A DNA stretch of 43,959 nucleotides. It comes from Actinomycetota bacterium. GTDB lineage: Bacteria > Actinomycetota > Coriobacteriia > Anaerosomatales > UBA912. The translations under genes and the position numbers were made by a program. Each line of letters starts with the position of its first letter. Positions within the stretch are counted from its first letter, which is position 1. The notes under the pieces were generated by a model. That model ran no database searches. It was not told where the DNA came from and worked only from the letters and a program-made list of their open reading frames with translations. Below are positions 857 through 43,844 of this stretch, in pieces. The stretch spans positions 1 to 43,959 of the forward strand of contig JAMDCK010000021.1 of NCBI GenBank assembly GCA_023488435.1. The letters run 5' to 3'.

Positions 857-3800
857 ATGCATGCTGCTCAACAATCGAAGTCATCGCCACCAGCCTGGCT
901 CATCGTCAGCACGGTTTCGGCCTTGGTGCTGATCGGTGTCGGTGGCTACTTGCTCTTCCTCACCCAGCGCGATTTCTTCGATGAGAGCGCCAAACACTCC
1001 CTCACGACAGTTTCTGCCGTCAAAGTCGACCAGATCGTGCAGTGGCGTGAAGAGCGTTTTCGGGACGCCGGTCATGTGACGGCCTCTATCGGCGCGACAA
1101 GGGTTGCGGTGTGGATTGAAGAGCCCGACAGCCTCGACGAGGCGCTTGTTGCCCAGTGGCTTTCGACTTCGTACGCTCCCAGCTACTACACGGGAGCGAC
1201 CATAGCCGATGGTTCCGGTTTGATTAGAATGACTTCAGGCGCGGTGAGTCCGCACATGACTGACCCGCTGCTTCGCGCCATTGAGAAAGCGATGCAGACG
1301 GGGCAGCCGCAGATCACCGATCCCTATGTCGCAGCCGAGGGAGAACATGCAAAGGTGCATCTAGTGGCACCGCTCTTCGATTCCACCGCCGTAGAGCGGC
1401 AAGTCACAGGTGTTGTGTTCCTTTGCATGAACGCCGAGGCTACTCTCTTTCCGCTGATCGCCGTGGATCCGCTCGGCAGTGAAACTGCCGAGACCGTGCT
1501 GCTCAGACGTGACGGCGAATACGTCCACTTCCTCAACAATCTACGACATGTCGATAATTCCGATCTGTCCTTCAGGGTTCCGCTGACTCGCACCGGCGTC
1601 CCCGCCGTCAACGCGGTGCTTGGAGAGATCGGGACGATGCACGGAGAAGACTACAGAGGCGTGCGTGTACTTGCTAGGTTAGATCAAGTTCCAAGCACTC
1701 CTTGGAGTGTCGTTACCAAGATCGACGAGGAAGAGGTATTCGCGGGGTGGCGGCTCGAAGCGTGGACGATATGGATCGGCACCTTGATTCTGATGCCCTC
1801 AGCCGTCGGCACTGCGGGGATGATCAAGCAGCGGATCGACCTCTCTCAGAGGGCTGCCCTTTTCGAGTCGGAACGCGAGCGACTGGCGACTCAGCAAGCT
1901 CTGACCCTGAGCCAACAGTGGCTTTCTTTGGCATCAGAGGCGGCGAGCCAGGGATTTTGGGACTACGACATCCCAACGGGTCGGATTGAGATCAACCGCT
2001 CTTTCGCCACGATGTATGGATTCGACCCAGACACTTTCGTTGAATCGTACTCCGCGTGGGCAGGGCGACTCCATCCCGACGACAGGACCCGTGTTGAGGC
2101 CGAGTTGAGGGATTACATCGAGGGCGCAGCTCCCGAATACAGGGCTATATATCGAACGATGAATGCCGACGGGGCATGGCTGTGGACCCTGTGCATCGGG
2201 AGTGTCACTCACCGCGATGAGCAGGGCACTCCGTTGCGCATGCTCGGCGTTGACACGGACATCACCTCACTCAAAGAGGCGCAGATCGAAGCGGCGGCGG
2301 CTCGTCAGCTTCTGCAAGATATTCTCGACACCATTCCCGTCAGAGTCTTCTGGAAGGACCTTGAGTCGCGATACCTTGGATGCAATAAACCGTTTGCAGT
2401 CGATGCCGGGTATGCCTCGCCAGATGAAATTGCGGGCAAGAGCGACTATGACCTAAGTTGGGCGGAAAAAGCCGAATCGTTCCGAGCCGACGATCGCAAT
2501 GTTATCGACAACGGGGCGATGCCGCTGGGAGTTGAGGAGCCCGGGCTGTCGGCAACAGGCGAGAGTATTTGGCTGCGCACCAACAAGGTTCCAATGCGGA
2601 ACGAACACGGGAGCATCATCGGGGTGATTGGCACTTATGAGGACATCACCTCAGAGAAGCTGACAAAACTCGAACTTGCGCAGCTCAACGAGAACCTCGA
2701 GCAGCTGGTGGATGAGCGCACCGAGGAGCTCTCAGCGGCCCTGCAGGAACTGCAGACCCTTTTCGAGGATCTCAGGGAGGTCAACGAGCAGCTCACTTCT
2801 GCCAACGAAGCGAAGACCGTGTTCCTGCGCTCGATGAGCCATGAGCTTCGGACGCCGTTGAACTCGGTGATTGGATTTTCGTCCCTGTTACTGCAAGGAG
2901 CAGCAGGGCCGACGACTGGGGAGCAAGAAAAGCAGCTTGAGATGATCAACCTATCCGGCAAGCATCTACTTGAGCTCATCAACGACATCCTCGATCTGTC
3001 GCGCATCGAGGCGGGTAGCGTCCAGCTGACACGCACGGTTTTCTCGGTGGAGGAGCTAGTGAGGGAAGTCGTGGAATCAGTAGCGCCTCAGGCGGCGAGC
3101 AAGTCGCTTTTGCTTTCGCACGAGGTATCCGAGCCAGCCCTTCTGCTGGATTCTGATCGCATCCGTGTCAGGCAGATACTGCTGAACCTGCTCGGCAACG
3201 CCATCAAGTTCACAGACGAGGGCTCGATCACAATCCGTGCGTGGCGCCCCGCCGACGGCGAGGTCGCCTTCTCGGTCATCGACACCGGCTGCGGGATTTC
3301 GGCCACAGATTATGAACGCATCTTCGAGGATTTCGTGAAGGCTCGACAAAATCCCCCATGTGCGGTGGAAGGCACTGGCCTAGGACTTCCGATATCCCGC
3401 ACCCTGACGACCTTGCTTGGCGGCACATTGACTGTCGAGAGCACTCCTGGCGAGGGTTCAACTTTCACTCTTCGGTTACCGGAAAGACCCGCGGGGGACT
3501 TCGACTCCACATGGATGAAAGGGGCACCGATGCTGAGAGGCGACGGTTACCGATTGAACAACGCGATACGCACATCCATTCTGACTTCAATCCTTGCGAT
3601 CACAGCACTCGGCATTATGGGGTGTACGACTCCCGAAGCGCCCACCGATGCACAAACGTCGGTCTTGGAGACCCCTGAAGAGGGCGCTGAGCGCCTCCTG
3701 ACCGAGCTCCCAACCTCAACCTTCACTGAGCAGCAAGCCCTCGAAGCCCGGGGCGCTCTTCGCGACGCGGTGATCGAAGGGGCTTCCTCATCTACCGACT

Positions 3801-4438
3801 GGCTTGCAATCAACGAGGATGGATCGTTCGAAGCCACCGGCATCTTGCAAGGGGGCGGCTCCTGGGATGGCGCCGGGGGCGAGCACATCCTCGTGGGACT
3901 CAAAGTCCCGCAGGTCGTTGGTGATGTGACCGTCTATCATGTCATCCCCCTGATCTTCGAGGCACAGGCCCAGGTCACAAGCAGGGGAGAGCAGCACTCC
4001 ATCGAGGCTGTGATGTGGCCCTCCGAGGGAGCATCGGTCGATTATGGTGGGTACTGGGCCACGGCGCGATTTTCGGTTCAAGACGGCTGGATCAGAGGTG
4101 AGTCCCTCGCCTTCACCGATCGGGAAGTCGTTTGGGGTGCTTGGCCGGATGACTATCCCGCATCGGCGGACACCTTCAATCTTGCAGGCTTTTTGGCTTG
4201 TTGGCTTTCTGCGGAGCCTGGGGAGCAGGGATTCGCAGGTAGTTTCGATGTGACGGTGGTGGACCATCTTGGGTCGGCGGCCATCTACCATGTGGCGCAG
4301 GTTTTCTACGAGCAGCAAGACGACGTTCCTGCTGGGCTACTGTTGATGTCGAGCGATGCATCGGAGCCCATCAAACCGCAGGCACTGGCAGTTCGCTTGG
4401 TCGATGATAAGCTGGTGGTCGATGGGGCGGATCGGTGA
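857..4438 (+). CDS. Membrane sensor histidine kinase (PAS-PAS-HisKA-HATPase), ORF continues in frame into a lipoprotein-like region
   Basis: A 1193-codon ORF. Residues 15-35 and about 303-323 are membrane helices enclosing a roughly 270-residue extracellular sensor, probably Cache-like. Two PAS domains follow (about 353-475 and 483-605), then a Glu/Leu-rich coiled coil. The HisKA H-box MSHELRTPLN has phospho-acceptor His662. The HATPase has N781 in the N box, DTGCGIS (D809) and GTGLGLPIS from 839. The kinase ends near residue 885. From residue 892 the same frame encodes a signal peptide with a lipobox and an extracytoplasmic domain, which is unusual for a kinase C-terminus. A ribosome-binding site and ATG at 3530, plus a TGA at 3516 in the +1 frame, suggest two genes joined by one extra base in the G5 run at 3493-3497. 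No response regulator is adjacent. The kinase call is firm; the single-protein reading is doubtful. Confidence 0.8.
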   Translation: MHAAQQSKSSPPAWLIVSTVSALVLIGVGGYLLFLTQRDFFDESAKHSLTTVSAVKVDQIVQWREERFRDAGHVTASIGATRVAVWIEEPDSLDEALVAQWLSTSYAPSYYTGATIADGSGLIRMTSGAVSPHMTDPLLRAIEKAMQTGQPQITDPYVAAEGEHAKVHLVAPLFDSTAVERQVTGVVFLCMNAEATLFPLIAVDPLGSETAETVLLRRDGEYVHFLNNLRHVDNSDLSFRVPLTRTGVPAVNAVLGEIGTMHGEDYRGVRVLARLDQVPSTPWSVVTKIDEEEVFAGWRLEAWTIWIGTLILMPSAVGTAGMIKQRIDLSQRAALFESERERLATQQALTLSQQWLSLASEAASQGFWDYDIPTGRIEINRSFATMYGFDPDTFVESYSAWAGRLHPDDRTRVEAELRDYIEGAAPEYRAIYRTMNADGAWLWTLCIGSVTHRDEQGTPLRMLGVDTDITSLKEAQIEAAAARQLLQDILDTIPVRVFWKDLESRYLGCNKPFAVDAGYASPDEIAGKSDYDLSWAEKAESFRADDRNVIDNGAMPLGVEEPGLSATGESIWLRTNKVPMRNEHGSIIGVIGTYEDITSEKLTKLELAQLNENLEQLVDERTEELSAALQELQTLFEDLREVNEQLTSANEAKTVFLRSMSHELRTPLNSVIGFSSLLLQGAAGPTTGEQEKQLEMINLSGKHLLELINDILDLSRIEAGSVQLTRTVFSVEELVREVVESVAPQAASKSLLLSHEVSEPALLLDSDRIRVRQILLNLLGNAIKFTDEGSITIRAWRPADGEVAFSVIDTGCGISATDYERIFEDFVKARQNPPCAVEGTGLGLPISRTLTTLLGGTLTVESTPGEGSTFTLRLPERPAGDFDSTWMKGAPMLRGDGYRLNNAIRTSILTSILAITALGIMGCTTPEAPTDAQTSVLETPEEGAERLLTELPTSTFTEQQALEARGALRDAVIEGASSSTDWLAINEDGSFEATGILQGGGSWDGAGGEHILVGLKVPQVVGDVTVYHVIPLIFEAQAQVTSRGEQHSIEAVMWPSEGASVDYGGYWATARFSVQDGWIRGESLAFTDREVVWGAWPDDYPASADTFNLAGFLACWLSAEPGEQGFAGSFDVTVVDHLGSAAIYHVAQVFYEQQDDVPAGLLLMSSDASEPIKPQALAVRLVDDKLVVDGADR
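3517..3524 (+). promoter_or_regulatory. Ribosome-binding site supporting a separate lipoprotein start
   Basis: GAAAGGGG sits 5 bases before the ATG at 3530, which begins a signal peptide. It overlaps an out-of-frame TGA (3516-3518) that would end the kinase after a one-base frameshift. The arrangement looks like an ordinary two-gene junction. Confidence 0.5.
3530..4438 (+). CDS. Putative lipoprotein, possible independent gene inside the 3' end of the kinase ORF
   Basis: Reading from the internal ATG at 3530 gives 302 residues. They begin with a basic/hydrophobic signal peptide ending in a lipobox (LGIMGC, Cys32), then a Thr/Pro/Glu linker and a roughly 250-residue mixed alpha/beta domain I do not recognise. 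GAAAGGGG at 3517-3524 lies 5 bases before this ATG, a good Shine-Dalgarno placement. The lipobox and linker are typical of a surface lipoprotein. As written, the sequence joins it in frame to the histidine kinase. If the G5 run at 3493-3497 had four G's, the kinase would stop at TGA 3516-3518 and this would be a normal downstream gene. The function is unknown; a partner sensing protein for the kinase is only a guess. The stop overlaps a possible GTG start at 4435. Confidence 0.55.
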   Translation: MLRGDGYRLNNAIRTSILTSILAITALGIMGCTTPEAPTDAQTSVLETPEEGAERLLTELPTSTFTEQQALEARGALRDAVIEGASSSTDWLAINEDGSFEATGILQGGGSWDGAGGEHILVGLKVPQVVGDVTVYHVIPLIFEAQAQVTSRGEQHSIEAVMWPSEGASVDYGGYWATARFSVQDGWIRGESLAFTDREVVWGAWPDDYPASADTFNLAGFLACWLSAEPGEQGFAGSFDVTVVDHLGSAAIYHVAQVFYEQQDDVPAGLLLMSSDASEPIKPQALAVRLVDDKLVVDGADR

Positions 4439-34854: not shown

Positions 34855-34920
34855 CCTTCTGCATATTACGAGCGATTTCGAAGTGCCGAGCCTCGGGTGC
34901 GGCCTTCGCGGGTGGGACCT

Positions 34921-37900
34921 ATGACCGAAGTGACAATCGAACAGCGCGGGCACTGCTGTGGGCATGGCCGATGGGGCGTCCGGAGAGTGGAGCCTGGTCC
35001 CGCCGAGGCGCTGGCGCGCGAGACCGGTTTTTCGCTGGTCTTCTGCCGCATCATGGTTGGCCGCGGTATCACCGATGCGGCCGCCGCCCGCGCATTCATC
35101 GAGCCGTCGCTTGATCGTGACTGGCTCGACCCGCACGTGATTCCGGGTATGCGCGCGGGGGCCGAGAGGGTCGCTGCCGCGATTAGGGCCCGTGAGCGCA
35201 TCGTGGTCTTCGGGGACTTCGACCTCGATGGCATCTCTTCGGCGGCTTTGATGGCTCGCGGACTTTCGGCGATGGGCGCAGATGTCGAGGCAATCATCCC
35301 GGACAGGTTCGCCGAAGGTTACGGGCTCTCGGTTGCCGCGATGGATCGTGCTCTTGCGCTTGGTCCGAAGCTGCTCATTACCGTCGACTGCGGTGTCTCC
35401 TCCAGAGCCGAGGTCGCCCAGCTGTTGGGCGCCGGGGTGGACGTGGTGGTCACCGATCACCATGAGCCCGGGGAGGGTCTGCCGGTCGGGATACCCGTTG
35501 TGAACCCCAAGCTTGACCCCAACTGCCCCTCCTTCTCGCTTGCCGGTGCGGGTGTCGCGCTCAAGTTCGTGCAGGCCGTTGGCGACGCGGTCGGCTCGCC
35601 CGATGTCTGGCGTTCGCTCACAGATCTTGCAGCGCTGGGCACGATCGCCGACATCGTCCCGCTGATTGGCGAGAATCGAGCGCTGGTCGCGGATGGCCTC
35701 GCGCGCATCGCAGCGGCTCCGCGAGCGGGCATCGCCGCGCTAGCAGAGGTAGCGGGTGTCTCGGCGAGTGGATTGCGCTCCCAGGATGTCGCCTTCGGTC
35801 TAGCGCCGCGACTCAACGCCGCCGGCCGTATGGGAAGCCCGGACATCGCGCTAGACCTGATGATGGTCGATGACGCTCCGACCGCCGAGAAGCTGGCATC
35901 CGCGCTCGATGAGCAGAATCGCAACCGCCAAATCGTCGAGCAGAAGATGAGCGAAGAGGCCCTCCAGCTCGCCGAGCAGAGCATCCGCAGCGGCGATCGC
36001 GCCCTGGTGCTCGCACGCGAGGGTTGGCACGAGGGCGTGAAGGGGATCGTCGCATCCAGGTTGGCCACCAGGTTCGGCTTGCCGTGCATCCTATTCGTCA
36101 TCCGCGACGGGCTCGCCCTGGGCTCGGGTCGCTCGGCTGGCAGCGTCGACCTCTACGCTGCGGTCGAGGCGTGCTCCTCACACCTGGTGCGCTTCGGCGG
36201 GCACCATGCGGCAGTCGGGGTGACCCTGGCGGTGGAGGAGCTCGAACCCTTCCGGGAATCGCTACGTGCACATCTCGCGACCCTGCCTGCCGATGAGTTC
36301 GTCGCCGAGCGGCTATGTGACGTCGCGGTCTCCCTCGATGATGTTTCGGTCGAGTTGGGGACGGAGCTCGCGTTGATGGAGCCGTTCGGACACGGGAATC
36401 CGGCGCCTCTGTTTGAGGCGAGCAGCGTCTTCATGACCTCCCGCCAACGAGTGGGTAAGGATTCGAACCACCTTCGCTTCACCGCATTCGACGGCACGAA
36501 CGGTGTCGGCGCCATCGCATTCCGCTGCCGAGACATCGAGCAGGCCGCCGACATGGAGACGCCGGTCGATCTTGCCTTCGAGCTCAGCGTCGACACGTGG
36601 CGCGGCAACCGCCGGGCACAGCTGATGGTTCGCGATTTCGCGACCCTCGAAGTCGAGGAGGACGCACCCGCGGCAGAGCTCGTCGAAGAGCTATTCGCGC
36701 GCGCGGATGCGATCGTCGCTCGCGAGGAGTACTCGGGAATCACAGACGCCGAGTCGTTCCACACCAAGCTCGTCGGAGTGACTTTCGAAGGCAGACAGGA
36801 CGTTATCTCTCGGTTGAAGTCGGGCGACGCACTCGCGATGAGACGCCAACCCGAGAATCCCTATGACGCCAATGCGATCGCGCTCTTCGAACACCGTGGC
36901 GCACAGGTTGGCTTCCTCAACCGCCGTCTGGCCCAGGCCCTTGCACCTGCACTCGATGCCGGTGTCGCCTACGACGTCGAGGTCACAGATGTGACCGGCG
37001 GCGTCGACGCACGCTCCTGGGGCGTCAATGTGCGCATCAGCCGGCGAGGCGATGCCATCGACCCGGTGAGCGAGACTTCCAAGGCTGAGATCCGCGAAGA
37101 GCTTGCGCAACTGTCGCCCGAGGCCCTTGAGCGCACGATCATCACGCGCCTCATCGGCGACAGGGCGCTTCTGGAGACCCAGGGCAAGGCCCTCGAGGTG
37201 CTTGCAGCAGGCAGGCGCTGCCTTACGGTGATGGCCACCGGCCGAGGCAAGTCCCTGATCTTCCACGCCCACGCCGCCAGGCTCGCACTTAAGGAATCAA
37301 AGGCGTCGGTCTTCGTCTTCCCCTTGCGCGCACTCGTAGCCGACCAGCACTTCCACCTCGCCGAGATGTTCCTCGAGTTCGGCTTGACGGTGAAGGTTCT
37401 CACAGGTGAGTCCTCATCGGCGCAGCGAGACGAGATCTTCGCGGGACTCGCCGAAGGCGAGGTATCCGTGGTGCTGACCACACCGGAGTTCTTCGAGCAC
37501 AACTCGGCCAGATTCGCAGCGACCGAGCGGATCGGGTTCGTCGTTGTGGACGAAGCGCACCACGTGGGTCGCGCGAAGGCCGGACATCGCCCCGCATACG
37601 CTCGGCTCGGCGAGGCGATAGCCTCACTGGGCGATGGCGTCGGAGTCTTCGCTTGCACCGCCACGGCGAGCGCCGAGATCGCGTCGATAATCGAGGAGTC
37701 TCTCGGCATTGATGTCGTGCTCGAGGACCCGGCGGTGCGCGACAACCTCGGGCTTGAGGACAGGCGCGGCATCAAAGACAAGGAAGGAAGTCTGCTGGCC
37801 ATCGCGCTTTCCGGCGGCAAGACGATCGTCTACTCGAACTCGCGTGACCAGACCGTGCGCATCGCCCGCATGCTACGCAAGCGCATCCCGGCGCTGGCCT

Positions 37901-38607
37901 CGCGGGTCGTGTTCTACAACGGTGGCCTCGGCAGGCAGGCTCGGCACGCGGTCGAGCAGGCCTTCAGGAACGGCGACCTATCCATCGTCGTGGCCACGAG
38001 TGCTTTCGGTGAAGGCGTCAACATCCCCGATATCCGCAACGTCGTGCTCTATCACCTGCCATTCAACGAGATCGAGTTCAACCAGATGTCGGGCAGGGCC
38101 GGCCGTGATGGAGCCCCTTCGGCGGTTCACCTGCTCTTCGGGGCGGGGGACGGTCGCATCAACGACCTCGTGCTCTCGACCCAGGCCCCGGCCCGCGAGG
38201 ACATGGCAGCCCTCTACCTGACGCTCAAAGACATCCAGGGCTCGAACGGCGAGGGCTTCGAGGTCACCAACGCCGAGCTCGCCGAGCTGATCTCGCGCCA
38301 AGCCGGTCGCGACTTCACCGACAAGGCGGTCTCTGTGGGCCTGTCGGTCTTTCGCGAACTCGGACTGTTGCGTTCGGAAGGCCACGGCCCTTACCGGCGC
38401 CTCACCGTCGTCCTGCCGCCGCCCGGCAAGATGGAGCTCGCCGAGTCCGTGCGCTACTCCGAAGGGCTCGAAGAGATCGCCGAGTTCCGCGAATTCCGCA
38501 CCTGGGCGCTTGGCGCAACCGCCGAAGATTTGCTTGCGCGCTTCAATCGACCTATCCTTCCATCAACGACGCCAACGACGGGCCAGGAGACATGTCAGCG
38601 ACCCTAG
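34921..38607 (+). CDS. recJ: RecJ nuclease fused to a HIRAN domain and an SF2 (RecQ-like) helicase
   Basis: 1228 residues, about twice the usual RecJ. Residues 1-590 form a complete RecJ: DHH motif I D99-F-D101-L-D103-G, DHH at 179-181 (TDHHEP), DHHA1 GGHHAAVG (426-433) and an OB-like stretch. Residues about 613-695 are a HIRAN domain (LVGVTFEGRQDVISRL, NPYDANAIALF, VGFLNRRLAQAL). Residues about 740-1200 are an SF2 helicase: Walker A ATGRGKS (Lys777), DEAH 877-880, ACTATAS, IVYSNSRDQ, and FGEGVNIPDIRN with QMSGRAGRDG as motifs V-VI. Nuclease and helicase motifs both look intact. HIRAN domains bind 3' DNA ends in fork-remodelling enzymes. GTG 34897 is an alternative start. The end overlaps the (p)ppGpp gene by 16 bases. 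Fusion is seen; a coupled unwinding-resection role is inferred. Confidence 0.92.
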   Translation: MTEVTIEQRGHCCGHGRWGVRRVEPGPAEALARETGFSLVFCRIMVGRGITDAAAARAFIEPSLDRDWLDPHVIPGMRAGAERVAAAIRARERIVVFGDFDLDGISSAALMARGLSAMGADVEAIIPDRFAEGYGLSVAAMDRALALGPKLLITVDCGVSSRAEVAQLLGAGVDVVVTDHHEPGEGLPVGIPVVNPKLDPNCPSFSLAGAGVALKFVQAVGDAVGSPDVWRSLTDLAALGTIADIVPLIGENRALVADGLARIAAAPRAGIAALAEVAGVSASGLRSQDVAFGLAPRLNAAGRMGSPDIALDLMMVDDAPTAEKLASALDEQNRNRQIVEQKMSEEALQLAEQSIRSGDRALVLAREGWHEGVKGIVASRLATRFGLPCILFVIRDGLALGSGRSAGSVDLYAAVEACSSHLVRFGGHHAAVGVTLAVEELEPFRESLRAHLATLPADEFVAERLCDVAVSLDDVSVELGTELALMEPFGHGNPAPLFEASSVFMTSRQRVGKDSNHLRFTAFDGTNGVGAIAFRCRDIEQAADMETPVDLAFELSVDTWRGNRRAQLMVRDFATLEVEEDAPAAELVEELFARADAIVAREEYSGITDAESFHTKLVGVTFEGRQDVISRLKSGDALAMRRQPENPYDANAIALFEHRGAQVGFLNRRLAQALAPALDAGVAYDVEVTDVTGGVDARSWGVNVRISRRGDAIDPVSETSKAEIREELAQLSPEALERTIITRLIGDRALLETQGKALEVLAAGRRCLTVMATGRGKSLIFHAHAARLALKESKASVFVFPLRALVADQHFHLAEMFLEFGLTVKVLTGESSSAQRDEIFAGLAEGEVSVVLTTPEFFEHNSARFAATERIGFVVVDEAHHVGRAKAGHRPAYARLGEAIASLGDGVGVFACTATASAEIASIIEESLGIDVVLEDPAVRDNLGLEDRRGIKDKEGSLLAIALSGGKTIVYSNSRDQTVRIARMLRKRIPALASRVVFYNGGLGRQARHAVEQAFRNGDLSIVVATSAFGEGVNIPDIRNVVLYHLPFNEIEFNQMSGRAGRDGAPSAVHLLFGAGDGRINDLVLSTQAPAREDMAALYLTLKDIQGSNGEGFEVTNAELAELISRQAGRDFTDKAVSVGLSVFRELGLLRSEGHGPYRRLTVVLPPPGKMELAESVRYSEGLEEIAEFREFRTWALGATAEDLLARFNRPILPSTTPTTGQETCQRP

Positions 38608-40805
38608 AAGACATCGAACGCCATCTAGGCCAGTATCTTCCGGACGTCGACGTCACGGATCTCGAGGATGCCTACGAGTTCGCTCGCGAGGCGCACGAGG
38701 GTCAATCGCGCAAGTCGGGTGAGCCTTTCTTGGCGCATCCCGTCGAGACTTGCCTCATCCTCGCTGAGCTCCACATGGACACCGCGACCCTCAAGGCAGC
38801 GATCCTCCACGACGTCGTCGAGGACAGCTCGGTGGAGCTGGGGACGGTACGCGAGCGCTTCGGTGATGAGGTCGCCGACCTCGTGGACGGCGTCACCAAG
38901 CTCGGGCGCATCGAGTTCGAGTCCCTCTCGGAAGCGCAAAGCAACAACTTGCGTAAGATGCTCATTGCGATGGCCAAGGACATCCGCGTCATCATCATCA
39001 AGCTGGCCGACCGCCTTCACAACATGCGCACCCTCGCTGTGTTGCCGCCGGACAGGCAGCGCGACAAGTCCATCGAGACGCTCGAGATATACGCGCCACT
39101 CGCGCATCGCTTAGGCATCTCGAGTATCAAGTGGGAGCTCGAGGACCTGGCCTTCTACTACCTCGAGCCCAAGAAGTACCACCAGGTCCAGAAGATGGTC
39201 GCCGAGCGCAGGGCCGCGCGCGAAGTCTACCTCGCCGATGTCATCGACACGCTCCATCGCGAGCTGCATGAGGTCGGGGTCTCGGCCGATATCTCAGGCC
39301 GCCCTAAGCACCTGTACAGCATCCACCAGAAGATGTCGCAGAAGGGCAAGGACTTCAACGAGATCTACGACCTGATCGCCCTGCGCATCATCGTAAGCTC
39401 GGTCAAGGACGTCTACGGCGCGCTGGGAACGGTCCACTCGATTTGGAAGCCGGTGCCCGGTCGCTTCAAGGACTACGTCGCCATGCCTAAGTTCAACATG
39501 TACCAGTCGCTGCACACGACGGTCATCGGACCCGCGGGTCGCCCCTTGGAGATCCAGATCCGCACCGAGGAGATGCATCGCACCGCTGAGTTCGGCATCG
39601 CAGCCCACTGGCGCTACAAGGAGGGCGGCCGAGGAGACGCAAGCTTCGAGGAGAGGCTCTCGTGGCTTCGGCAGATGCTCGAATGGCAGACCGAACTCAA
39701 GGATCCCCGCGAGTTCATGGAAGCGCTCAAGATCGACCTCTTTGAGGACGAGGTCTTCGTCTTCACGCCGAAGGGCGACGTCAGATCGCTTCGCAAAGGG
39801 GCCACGCCGCTCGATTTCGCTTACGCGATCCACACCGAGGTCGGGCATCACTGCGTCGGCGCGAAGGTCAACGGCTCGATTGTCCCGCTCGCTCACGAAC
39901 TGCACATGGGCGACCGCGTCGAGATCCTCACCAACAAGAACTCGTGGCCCAGCCGCGACTGGCTCAACATCATCAAGACGAGCAGCGCGCGCACCAAGAT
40001 CCGCGGGCACTTCTCGAAAGCCAGTCGCGTCGACGACCTCGCGAAAGGCAAGGAAGAGCTCGCCAAGGTGATGAGGCGCCATGGCATGGGGCTGTCATCG
40101 GCGCAGACGAATCGCGCCTTGGAGCAGGTAGCCGCCGAGGTCAAGCTCGCATCCGCAGACGACCTGCTCGCGCAGATCGGGGCGGGGAAGGCCTCGCCCA
40201 AGCAGGTGGCGGGCAAGATCCTCAAGCTGATGTCGGTCGATGACGCCAAACCCGCCGAGGAGACCCTTCCGCGCGAGTTCACCCTCGCCGAGCCGATGCG
40301 CCCACCCAAGGCGCACCGCCAGCGCAAAGGCGGCGTGGGCGTCCGCGTCAAAGGCGTCGAGGGCGTTCTCGTCAGGCTATCCCGATGCTGCACCCCGGTG
40401 CCGTGCGACAAGATCCTCGGCTTCGTCACGCGAGGCAGGGGAGTATCGGTGCACCGCGCGGATTGCCCGAACGCGACAGAACTCCTCGGCCAGCCGGAGC
40501 GCCTGATCAAGGTGGAGTGGGATAGCGAGCACGAGGCAACGTTCCAGGTCGAGATCGTAGTCGAGGCCCTCGAGCGCCTACGCCTGCTGCCCGAGGTCAC
40601 CGACACACTGGCCCAGGCAGGCGCGAGCATCCTGTCGGCGAACTACTCGACCACCAAGGAGGGCATCTCGACGATGCGCTTCCTGTTCGACCTAGGCAAT
40701 ATGGACCAACTCGGACCGCTCTTACGGGAAGTCCGTGCGCTGGATGGCGTTTTCGACGCCGAGCGCCGCGCCCCGGGCGCCGAAGTCAAAAAGAAGAAGA
40801 GGTAG
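38592..40805 (+). CDS. rel: Bifunctional (p)ppGpp synthetase/hydrolase (Rel)
   Basis: A 737-residue RelA/SpoT homologue. The N-terminal HD hydrolase is intact (HPVETC, then H73-D74 in ILHDVVEDSS). The synthetase domain has the GRPKHLYSIHQKM segment and YQSLHTTVIGP near residue 304. A TGS domain follows at about 386-450 (VFVFTPKGDVRSL), then a conserved-cysteine region near 595-630 (LSRCCTPVPCDKI, HRADCPN) and a C-terminal ACT domain. Length and both catalytic sites indicate the bifunctional Rel of Gram-positive bacteria. ATG 38592 lies inside the 3' end of the recJ-helicase gene. It ends two bases before a metallo-hydrolase gene. Confidence 0.95.
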   Translation: MSATLEDIERHLGQYLPDVDVTDLEDAYEFAREAHEGQSRKSGEPFLAHPVETCLILAELHMDTATLKAAILHDVVEDSSVELGTVRERFGDEVADLVDGVTKLGRIEFESLSEAQSNNLRKMLIAMAKDIRVIIIKLADRLHNMRTLAVLPPDRQRDKSIETLEIYAPLAHRLGISSIKWELEDLAFYYLEPKKYHQVQKMVAERRAAREVYLADVIDTLHRELHEVGVSADISGRPKHLYSIHQKMSQKGKDFNEIYDLIALRIIVSSVKDVYGALGTVHSIWKPVPGRFKDYVAMPKFNMYQSLHTTVIGPAGRPLEIQIRTEEMHRTAEFGIAAHWRYKEGGRGDASFEERLSWLRQMLEWQTELKDPREFMEALKIDLFEDEVFVFTPKGDVRSLRKGATPLDFAYAIHTEVGHHCVGAKVNGSIVPLAHELHMGDRVEILTNKNSWPSRDWLNIIKTSSARTKIRGHFSKASRVDDLAKGKEELAKVMRRHGMGLSSAQTNRALEQVAAEVKLASADDLLAQIGAGKASPKQVAGKILKLMSVDDAKPAEETLPREFTLAEPMRPPKAHRQRKGGVGVRVKGVEGVLVRLSRCCTPVPCDKILGFVTRGRGVSVHRADCPNATELLGQPERLIKVEWDSEHEATFQVEIVVEALERLRLLPEVTDTLAQAGASILSANYSTTKEGISTMRFLFDLGNMDQLGPLLREVRALDGVFDAERRAPGAEVKKKKR

Positions 40806-40807
40806 CC

Positions 40808-41428
40808 GTGAAGATCGAGAGACTCGCACTAGGCCCGCTGGAAACCAACTGCTGGCTCGTTTCAGACGGACATGGAGGACCAGTGGTCATCATCGACCCT
40901 GCCGATGAGGCCGATCGGATTGTGAGCGCGCTCAAAGGCCGAGAAGTCGCTGCCGTGGTGTTGACGCACGGGCACTTCGATCACCTAGCAGCAGCCGGCG
41001 AGGTCATGTCGGCCACAGGAGCCGGACTCCAGGTCCACATGGCCGACGCACCCTGGATCACCACTGCCGCCGGCACCGGCGGTCTGCCCTTCGGATTCGA
41101 GGCCGCAGCCCCTCCTGCCAGCCGAGAGCTTCGCGACGGCGATACCATCGAGGCGGGCTCGCTTAACGTCGAGGTCCTGCACACGCCAGGACATACTCCC
41201 GGGAGCATCTGCCTGCTCGCCGACGGACATCTGTTCTCGGGGGACACGCTTTTCGCGGGCAGCGTCGGTAGGACCGACTTCCCACGAGGTGACGGGCGGG
41301 CACTAGGGCGCTCGATCGCAGAGCGCATCGCTCCGCTTCCTGACAAGACGCTCGTGCATCCTGGGCATGGTCCGGATACAAGCATCGACCGCGAACGGCG
41401 GATCAATCCCTTCTTCCCTAGGGGCTAG
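40808..41428 (+). CDS. Metallo-beta-lactamase-fold hydrolase (glyoxalase II-like)
   Basis: A 206-residue single-domain protein. Metal ligands are visible in T-H54-G-H56-F-D58-H59, the HTPGHTPGSICLL histidine, the bridging Asp in FSGDTLFAGSVGRTDF and the terminal HPGHGPDTS histidine. This pattern is shared by YcbL/GloB-type thioesterases. The C-terminal substrate domain of true glyoxalase II is missing, so hydroxyacylglutathione is not a safe assignment. GTG 40808 is preceded by AAGAGG within the rel stop region. An MBL hydrolase after rel is a common neighbourhood in Gram-positive bacteria. Confidence 0.88.
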   Translation: MKIERLALGPLETNCWLVSDGHGGPVVIIDPADEADRIVSALKGREVAAVVLTHGHFDHLAAAGEVMSATGAGLQVHMADAPWITTAAGTGGLPFGFEAAAPPASRELRDGDTIEAGSLNVEVLHTPGHTPGSICLLADGHLFSGDTLFAGSVGRTDFPRGDGRALGRSIAERIAPLPDKTLVHPGHGPDTSIDRERRINPFFPRG

Positions 41429-41592: not shown

Positions 41593-43824
41593 ATGACATA
41601 TGCGGCAACGCGACCCCTTGTCGTTGCACAGGCTAAGCGCCGAGGACTCCGGCTTGCTGTCCTGGCGCTGTTTGTCGTTATGTGGGCACTGGTCTTTTCG
41701 GCAGTAGCTTTTGCGAATACGACTCCAACGGTTCCGGTGAATGTCCAGGCTATCCCCGGAACGACATCTCCGCTGATTGCCAGGATTACTTGGAATGCGT
41801 CCACCGATGACGTCGGCGTGAGTGGGTATAACGTTTGGCGCTCGCTGACCTCCACGGGAACACCCTCGTTGATTGGTTCGACGGTCGGCCTGCGTTTCGA
41901 TGATGTGAGGGGAGTGCCGGGTCAGCCGTACTTCTACATGGTCAGCGCCTTTGACGGCGCTGGATTACAGTCGACTCGATCGGCCCCAGTAGGTCCGGTG
42001 CGCTCCACATGGGTACCGCGCCCGCACGTGACCTACACCACAGCGGGCAATCTATGTTCGTCCTGTCACACGCCGCATGAGGCCGCCACCGCAAGGGGCC
42101 TGCTCAGACCTGCGACAGGGGCCAGGACTGAGAGTTCAGTCTGCTTCACGTGTCACGATGGATCCGGTGCGATCAATATCAGGACCGGCCCCACCAATTC
42201 GTTCGCTCTCGCTAGCGGGCATGCTCTAGAGGAGCGCGATACCGGAGCCGATCTAGCGGATCGCTGCTCCAGCTGCCACTCGGCTCATGGTGACTTCAAC
42301 GTCAACAGAATGCTGCCTAGACCCTCGATCAATGGGACTACGGTAGCCCGCGGGAACTCCTGGTGTCTGGCTTGCCACAACAGTACTAACGACTGGTTCG
42401 GCCCAGGATATCCTTCCATGGCGACTCCCTCCAGGGATGCCAGCGGCTTCCCGGTGAGCGGCAGGTTCCCTGGACCCTCGATTGTGAGTAGTGCGGGCGC
42501 CAATCGACATGCGCTGATTCCAGCTTCGACGATAGCTACTCCGTCGCGTCAGGCAGGCGACTGCCTCTACTGTCATCAGTCCCATCGCTCGGCGAACCGA
42601 TACGACGCTCTTCGCCACACTTATCGCGCTCCGAGCGCATCGACCTTGGCCAGTGACCAGATAGGTGGCTTCGCTGAGTCCTGCTTCGCTTGTCACGGAG
42701 CCACCACGCCCAGTGTGTTTGCAACGCGCCCCGCTAACATGACTAACATCCGCCAGTTCGTGGCCACATCGACCGTCGCTACCACAACCAACATGGGGCA
42801 TCGGATCGAAACGGCAGGCGGGACGTTCCCGGTCGGATCGCCGATGCCGTGCTTCAGTTGCCACAACCCCCACGGGTCCAGCAGGGGTAACGCATCGCTG
42901 ATCTCAGATGAGAGAGGCAGGCTGCTTTCGACCACTTCGGCGGCGGGGGTTCGTGCCTTCTGCCTGACATGTCACGCGACAACCGATGGATTCGTCTGGA
43001 ACAGCATCACTTCTACGGTCACCGCCGTCAGCACCACCGAGACTGTGGTCGGACTGCGTCGTGATGGGACCGGCGGCACCGTATTAAGGCTTCCGGTCAT
43101 GGCAGCCGGGCACAATCGTGCTGACTCTCGGTCCTGCTACGAATGTCATACCAGTAGTCCGGGCACCCGTTATGCGCCCGGTGGGAACAACGTGCATAAC
43201 CCCGGACCCGGCACTCCCCCTGGCATTGTGACCAACACTTTGTTTTTCAGGCCCGAAGACACTGTGACAGGCAATATTCCTTCGGGTGATCAGGCGGGGG
43301 ACACGTATCAAGCTGCCGTGGCTGGATGGTCTGTACGCTCGATGGCACCGGCCAGTTCGACTGTTGCCTTCCAGTCTCAGACCGCCGCAGTGACCGTACC
43401 CACTGGTGCACAGAACTGGAGGATGGTTAGGTTCGTCTCCCCACCCGTTGCCACCACCGTTTCGATCCCGGCCGGTGGATGGAACATTGAGATTTGGGTC
43501 AGGCAGAACGCCACTGGAGCTAGCGCGTCCATGCGTCCCTTCGTCTACGTGTGGCTAGCTAACAACACTAGGGGTCCGGCCATCGTGGGTCCTGCAAACA
43601 TGGGAACTACATGGCCAACAACGTCACTGCCGGGTGAGTCTCGGGCGGCTACTGCAACGGCCCTCCTACCCGTGACGCTCAATCCAGGCGACAGGATTGT
43701 CATGGACATGGCCGTCCAGACAAATGCCACTTTCGCGATTGATCGTAGTTTCAGCTACTCCTTCGGCGTGGGGGCACAAGGATTCCTGCGTGCACCAACT
43801 GCCATAACCTGGGTAGCCCCTTAG
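41593..43824 (+). CDS. Secreted nine-haem c-type cytochrome with FN3 domain
   Basis: 743 residues. A signal peptide or anchor (about 17-41, AFA before Asn) is followed by a fibronectin type III domain (about 45-135, with ARITWNASTDDVGVSGYNVW). Nine CXXCH haem-binding motifs start at Cys155, 184, 225, 258, 324, 364, 420, 457 and 515. Four of them have a second histidine two residues later (CSSCHTPH, CSSCHSAH, CLYCHQSH, CFSCHNPH), the paired-CXXCH type. After about residue 540 is a 200-residue Thr/Val/Ala-rich beta domain of unknown type. It ends with no anchor or sorting signal. A role in extracellular electron transfer is likely for such proteins, but not proven. No strong Shine-Dalgarno site precedes ATG 41593. 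Confidence 0.9.
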   Translation: MTYAATRPLVVAQAKRRGLRLAVLALFVVMWALVFSAVAFANTTPTVPVNVQAIPGTTSPLIARITWNASTDDVGVSGYNVWRSLTSTGTPSLIGSTVGLRFDDVRGVPGQPYFYMVSAFDGAGLQSTRSAPVGPVRSTWVPRPHVTYTTAGNLCSSCHTPHEAATARGLLRPATGARTESSVCFTCHDGSGAINIRTGPTNSFALASGHALEERDTGADLADRCSSCHSAHGDFNVNRMLPRPSINGTTVARGNSWCLACHNSTNDWFGPGYPSMATPSRDASGFPVSGRFPGPSIVSSAGANRHALIPASTIATPSRQAGDCLYCHQSHRSANRYDALRHTYRAPSASTLASDQIGGFAESCFACHGATTPSVFATRPANMTNIRQFVATSTVATTTNMGHRIETAGGTFPVGSPMPCFSCHNPHGSSRGNASLISDERGRLLSTTSAAGVRAFCLTCHATTDGFVWNSITSTVTAVSTTETVVGLRRDGTGGTVLRLPVMAAGHNRADSRSCYECHTSSPGTRYAPGGNNVHNPGPGTPPGIVTNTLFFRPEDTVTGNIPSGDQAGDTYQAAVAGWSVRSMAPASSTVAFQSQTAAVTVPTGAQNWRMVRFVSPPVATTVSIPAGGWNIEIWVRQNATGASASMRPFVYVWLANNTRGPAIVGPANMGTTWPTTSLPGESRAATATALLPVTLNPGDRIVMDMAVQTNATFAIDRSFSYSFGVGAQGFLRAPTAITWVAP

Positions 43825-43844
43825 ATTGGTCGAGAAGCATCTAA
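43821..43844. terminator. Hairpin between the cytochrome gene and the convergent end-of-window gene
   Basis: TTAGAT (43821-43826) and ATCTAA (43839-43844) form a 6-pair stem. An alternative pairing of CCCC and AGATT with AATCT and GGGG is also possible. It includes the cytochrome stop codon. There is no T run; terminator function is uncertain. Confidence 0.35.

Follow-up and report, generated by a model that had tools for sequence, protein, structure and literature searches.

A gene near the end of this stretch of DNA encodes a secreted protein in which an FN3 domain, nine haem sites and a beta-rich tail follow one another, and the question it raises is whether this layout is a complete stand-alone design, as had been claimed in a preliminary description, or what is left of a longer cytochrome. 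The window (the whole stretch analysed, 43,959 nucleotides) is the entire contig C21 of assembly G000, a fragmented MAG of 1.70 Mb in 62 contigs that is 96% complete. Those of its relatives that bear a name are MAGs of Coriobacteriia and Anaerosomatales, and the sister genome G003 belongs to UBA912. We consider it probable (about 0.77) that the gene is an ortholog, truncated at its C-terminus, shortened inside and recombined in part, of a conserved secreted 19-haem cytochrome of the Anaerosomatales (OPB41, Coriobacteriia), that the full-length protein is a bis-His wire of the wall or surface which relatives have lengthened, and that about 4 kb has been deleted here.

Layout of the nine-haem protein

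Table 1. Features of the cytochrome locus, with positions in the window
Feature	Position	Strand	Basis
relA/spoT homologue (named by similarity), upstream marker of the conserved locus	38592..40805	+	synteny
Metallo-beta-lactamase-fold (MBL) hydrolase homologue (named by similarity), upstream marker of the locus	40808..41428	+	synteny
Multihaem cytochrome gene, read as truncated; 743 aa, nine CXXCH	41593..43824	+	ORF and profile evidence
Sec signal peptide, aa 1-42, cleavage near VAFA/N (judged by eye)	41593..41718	+	
FN3 domain, aa 44-136	41722..42000	+	sequence, profile and model
First haem unit, aa 139-544	42007..43224	+	nine CXXCH and ten conserved distal His
CXXCH sites	42055, 42142, 42265, 42364, 42562, 42682, 42850, 42961, 43135	+	
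In-frame junction; relatives hold about 241 aa more, with five haems	43225..43230	+	alignment with G003 and G001; HMM map
Beta jelly-roll domain, aa 547-743 (197 aa), divergent in the window copy	43231..43821	+	
TAG stop; relatives read on (P-L-Y-G-H-R / P-V-F-G-H-R) for about 358 aa with five haems	43822..43824	+	
9-bp target-site duplication GATTGGTCG; the hisS side reads GATTGGTGG, an 8/9 match	43824..43832	.	
End of an ISLre2-type insertion sequence of 1377 bp, with the C-terminal part of its UPF0236 transposase; broken off where the contig stops	43833..43959	-	

The reading frame of the cytochrome begins at an ATG, and the same start is kept in G003. The signal peptide is the only strongly hydrophobic segment of the protein (KD maximum 2.68, against at most 0.99 elsewhere), and a search for an anchor found no LPXTG and no further hydrophobic segment. 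The FN3 domain was matched to 1k85 by phmmer (E 4e-5) and recovered also by profile search and by AlphaFold/Foldseek. All 18 cysteines sit in the nine CXXCH motifs (aa 155, 184, 225, 258, 324, 364, 420, 457 and 515), and in 20,000 shuffles of the protein the motif occurred 0.01 times on average and at most twice. Pfam profiles PF09699 (Paired_CXXCH_1, E 3.5e-22) and PF14522 (E 3.9e-12) match the protein; taking as a multihaem c-type cytochrome any protein with at least three CXXCH motifs and a family profile (Paired_CXXCH or cytochrome c7-like), this one can be assigned to the class by its sequence. Its 20 histidines comprise nine proximal, ten conserved and one variable residue, and the nine haem sites and ten distal histidines are kept in 28-29 of 29 relatives. 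The ten conserved distal residues would suffice for bis-His ligation of all nine haems, a count that favours electron transfer over catalysis.

For the haem unit no confident PDB fold match was obtained, the Foldseek listing being dominated by FN3 and the pLDDT of this part of the model being low; within the same limit, no enzymatic multihaem fold was found among the matches of the PDB profile search and Foldseek. The tail was modelled as an all-beta jelly-roll at moderate confidence (mean pLDDT 71). A Pfam search of this domain gave no match above the cut-off; among PDB folds the model comes closest, at a TMq of about 0.6, to the beta domain of CocE/PepX-type hydrolases. The model agrees with the beta-rich character proposed for the tail. 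A comparison with filament-forming cytochromes had also been suggested, and the PDB profile search matched the window protein to none of OmcS, OmcE and OmcZ.

In most respects the preliminary description agrees with these results: the count of nine CXXCH, the export, the leading FN3 domain, the tail of about 200 residues and the lack of a membrane anchor were all recovered. The reading as an exported electron carrier with many haems and with adhesion-type modules, in a host that is probably monoderm, is supported, ten distal histidines for nine haems speaking for electron transfer.

Upstream of the genes listed in Table 1, positions 34897-38607 of the window form one 1236-aa frame that combines RecJ (DHH, DHHA1, RecJ_OB), HIRAN and a DEAD/Helicase_C helicase, and homologous sequence occupies the same place in relatives.

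A cytochrome family of variable length

The family to which the gene belongs is present in 37 of the 69 genomes of the order, which is probably Anaerosomatales (OPB41), a group of subsurface bacteria of the iron-reducing type, and weaker matches occur in one Thermoleophilia MAG and in other phyla. Most of the complete members of the family carry 19 haems. Using the 406-aa haem unit as a profile, we mapped tandem units of about 340 aa that are of two alternating types, so that each pair measures about 680 aa and holds 14 haems. The largest frames were found in G052 (5121 aa, 75 CXXCH), G008 (4696 aa, 61) and G058 (4118 aa, 75). Haem counts of 33, 33, 61, 75 and 75 equal 19+14k, and a count of 48 is off by one; a strict 14-haem rule was rejected as universal, because members with 42 (G089), 44 (G093) and 13-18 haems do not fit it. 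Some repeats are near-identical, those of G130 differing at 7 positions over 1374 bp and those of G008 at 1 over 696 bp. They come from short-read assemblies, and either recent duplication or conversion, or assembly error, would account for them.

The 75-haem gene of G052, which has a long N-terminal extension (L114), follows the relA-MBL pair as in the window, and so do the members at L065, L066, L112, L113, L116, L122, L126 and L132; the placement is established for these loci and not for the genes of G008, G058 and G130. In many family loci a ccsA-like gene lies downstream. We put forward tentatively, at somewhat less than even odds, that the relA-MBL locus of Anaerosomatales holds a length-variable wire, that is, one secreted polypeptide with its own ResB-CcsA that is grown or shrunk by recombination of the 14-haem unit of about 680 aa (19, 33, 61, 75) and whose length could be selected, the window copy being a contraction.

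Two further architectures were observed. At L055 (G008:C2, 15900-20000) about 1300 aa of repeated Ig-like beta domains, recognised by eye, precede the FN3 domain of the giant G008 cytochrome and form its beginning. A protein of 1067-1108 aa with 42 CXXCH, about one per 25 aa, is encoded at L148 (1721-4921) and also at L149, L151-L153, L155 and L159; it shows 19 Paired_CXXCH units in L148 and recurs in the neighbourhood of distant relatives, in Zixibacteria, Latescibacterota, Eisenbacteria and others.

The window copy beside its 19-haem orthologs

Genome G003 is colinear with the window gene by gene, the nearest flanking products being 92-98% identical in amino acids. Its ortholog of the cytochrome has 1352 aa and 19 haems, FN3 preceding a group of nine and a group of five haems, then the beta domain, five further haems and a C-terminal cap, and is followed by resB (PF05140), ccsA (PF01578) and hisS; the G001 ortholog (1360 aa) has the same layout. 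Compared with these, the window copy is without the middle five haems, in frame, and without the last five, its TAG standing just past the beta domain. It shares with the Anaerosomatales 19-haem locus family, as defined in this analysis, the upstream relA-MBL pair, the FN3 domain and the haem unit, and departs from it in having nine haems rather than at least 19, a stop in place of the C-terminal cap and an insertion sequence (IS) where resB-ccsA would follow. The beta domain occurs in five of the 69 genomes: in four relatives it is internal, with five more haems and a conserved C-terminal cap behind it, and only in the window copy is it C-terminal. Judged from these alignments, the C-terminus at 43821 is not that of the cytochrome family. 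The internal loss of 241 aa, which is seen in one assembly only, could be a misassembly.

The stop codon lies 8 bp before the IS that ends the contig. The element carries a UPF0236 transposase (PF06782, E 2.8e-16), a type that we take to belong to ISLre2, has a length of 1377 bp where about 1.4 kb is expected, ends in terminal inverted repeats (tips AGAAGCATC/GGAAGCATC) and is bordered by a 9-bp duplication. In G000, hisS is found on contig C22, whose upstream DNA follows G003 to about 100 bp from hisS and then passes into a complete 1377-bp IS; the flank of this copy, GATTGGTGG, matches the GATTGGTCG of the window at 8/9. The rule of a 9-bp duplication was fixed by another pair of copies, on C13 and C33, which have GCAACTCCC on both sides (9/9). 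Since order, strand and duplication agree, we place the genes as cytochrome-IS-hisS, a join that rests on the 8/9 match and on synteny. The presence of the IS and of the matching flank on the hisS contig indicates that about 4 kb, with the five C-terminal haems, resB and ccsA, has gone from the locus. The C-terminal five haems and the resB of the locus were sought elsewhere in G000 and not found, except for a 36% paralog on C23.

Contigs C33 and C48 were tried as the far side of the window IS and rejected, as their flanks mismatch the duplication and C33 pairs with C13; a six-haem ORF at the start of C35, considered as the lost C-terminus, was rejected for want of homology. On contig C104 of G003 (L099) the left flank is that of one IS copy (GCAACTCCC, as on C13) and the right flank that of a different one (TATGATTCC, as on C48), which gives this contig the appearance of a chimera formed between IS copies, perhaps even from two species.

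We compared synonymous divergence between the window and G003 along the region. In seven flanking genes dS is 0.29-0.72. Within the cytochrome it is about 0.4-0.8 for most of codons 1-140, and past codon 200 it is mostly above 1.3 or saturated. The 3' part of the gene is thus far more diverged than the neighbouring genes; its beta domain shares 52% identity with the G003 and with the G001 domain, against 75% between those two. The jump in dS within the gene suggests replacement by a diverged allele through recombination, not faster protein change.

It might be argued that the gene is already a functionless pseudogene, having lost ten of 19 haems, the dedicated resB-ccsA and the C-terminal cap, with an IS at its end and a fast-evolving beta domain. 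Yet its 743 codons contain no frameshift or internal stop, the nine haem sites and ten distal histidines are intact, pN/pS stays far below 1, the beta domain included, and the genome has other CcsA-type genes. The intact frame and the low pN/pS indicate that selection has acted on the gene through most of its past; it may be functional today, and we regard a dead gene as unlikely. The same intact frame, low pN/pS and complete haem ligands, together with two other short nine-haem relatives (G138, 588 aa; G004, 609 aa), would also suit a deliberate short design, in which FN3 binds the wall or a partner, nine haems form the wire and the beta domain is a cap or polymerisation module. This is a distinctly improbable reading. 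The closest orthologs, which occupy this locus in their genomes, carry 19 haems and lie beside resB-ccsA, and the beta domain is internal wherever else it occurs. Moreover, homology runs on past the stop, which adjoins an IS and a gap of 4 kb when compared with G003; the claim of a complete stand-alone protein accordingly found no support. An assembly or binning artefact, with DNA of two organisms fused or repeats skipped, is very improbable: dS jumps inside the gene, the contig ends in a repeat and C104 of G003 indicates that such errors occur in these data, but the flanking genes, the start and FN3 diverge normally from G003, inspection by eye showed no shared repeat at the internal junction, and the IS duplication agrees with the hisS contig.

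Proposed role, known systems and the host genome

The usual gene order is relA, MBL hydrolase, cytochrome, resB, ccsA and hisS. According to the truncated-ortholog reading, the intact protein would be exported by Sec and its haems loaded by the neighbouring ResB-CcsA (system II). A bis-His haem chain on FN3/Ig-like stalk domains could then conduct electrons across or outside the thick wall to minerals, electrodes or partners. In related proteins, several of them encoded at the relA-MBL locus, tandem units that each add 14 haems in about 680 aa bring the total to as many as 75. The deletion of about 4 kb in G000 took away resB and ccsA with their adjoining genes, besides the five haems at the end of the cytochrome, and the ISLre2-type element is found at the junction. 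Sequence shows the truncation, the synteny, the repeat architecture and, through synteny and the IS flanks, the deletion; the role in electron transfer, the wall or surface location and any residual function are inferred. The remnant can presumably still bind nine haems, and it is about equally likely that it persists as a short secreted carrier matured by another CcsA set or that it is decaying.

Bis-His multihaem chains are known for electron conduction. This knowledge, a signal for secretion, system II genes next to the cytochrome and the existence of iron-reducing relatives (PMC9686372) make an extracellular electron conduit the likeliest role of the full-length protein, and we hold it with good probability. 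The Anaerosomatales isolates Anaerosoma tenue and Parvivirga hydrogeniphila, probably of the same order as the window host, have 17-18 multihaem genes, part of which cluster with genes for cytochrome c biogenesis, and one cultured member of the order is an obligate Fe(III) reducer; the part of this source available to us describes homologs of MtrA, OmcH, OcwA and CFE_2239, and not the relA-MBL locus or the repeats (PMC9686372).

Giant multihaem proteins and layouts combining FN3 with haems are already known. The placing of FN3 before a haem array, which had been counted as part of an unusual layout, is shared by a 24-haem protein of Geoalkalibacter ferrihydriticus with two N-terminal FN3 domains, for which extracellular electron transfer is also proposed; this host is diderm, and the portion of the paper available mentions no 14-haem ladder or beta insert, the likeness being one of description (PMC12016550). 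ANME MHC-A/B/C proteins with up to 86 haems (PMC9012536) and a 69-haem protein of Desulfuromonas soudanensis (PMC4914508) are likewise very long haem chains, for which a role in taking electrons across the outer layer or past it is assumed, and ANME MHC-B is adjoined by a CcmF paralog (PMC9012536) as the Anaerosomatales cytochrome is by resB-ccsA. However, by description, ANME proteins bear S-layer or other domains, whereas the Anaerosomatales family has FN3/Ig-like N-termini, repeats of about 340 aa and an Actinomycetota host. A survey of bioanodes, which included a Coriobacteriales genome with 37 multihaem genes, reported at most 53 haems (PMC7399161), and the electron transfer reported for thick-walled bacteria uses modest proteins of 6-9 haems (PMC9012536). 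OmcS, OmcE and OmcZ would resemble the proposed chain in function as bis-His multihaem wires; unlike their filaments, it is one polypeptide.

In the literature searched, which was mostly open access, we found no report of the locus, the repeat ladder or the truncation. The movement of electrons to solids by thick-walled bacteria is poorly known, and a family of 19-75 haems with near-identical repeats offers a natural length series for tests of distance, conductivity and growth on minerals. The value of the window gene lies chiefly in its being a natural truncation, and it cautions against taking the nine-haem layout for the family design.

The lack of maturation genes beside the cytochrome had been noted before, and it is true of the window; it is due to the local deletion and the contig end, and is not a feature of the genome, which encodes CcsA-type assembly proteins (Cytochrom_C_asm matches on C14, C9 and C45). 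A genome without any maturation system and an enzymatic multihaem fold had both been named as findings that would count against an electron carrier, and neither was encountered. As a search of the whole genome revealed, the host is rich in multihaem proteins, with others on C14, C19, C23, C29, C35 and C45. The one at L076:5178-9785 (G000:C29) has 1536 aa and 37 haems and ends in carboxypeptidase-regulatory-like and F5/8 type C domains. We also observed unrelated genes present as apparently identical tandem copies of about 1 kb at L162 (G000:C33; 2222-2716 / 3315-3809) and on G000:C45 (15483 / 16518), which may be assembly duplications.
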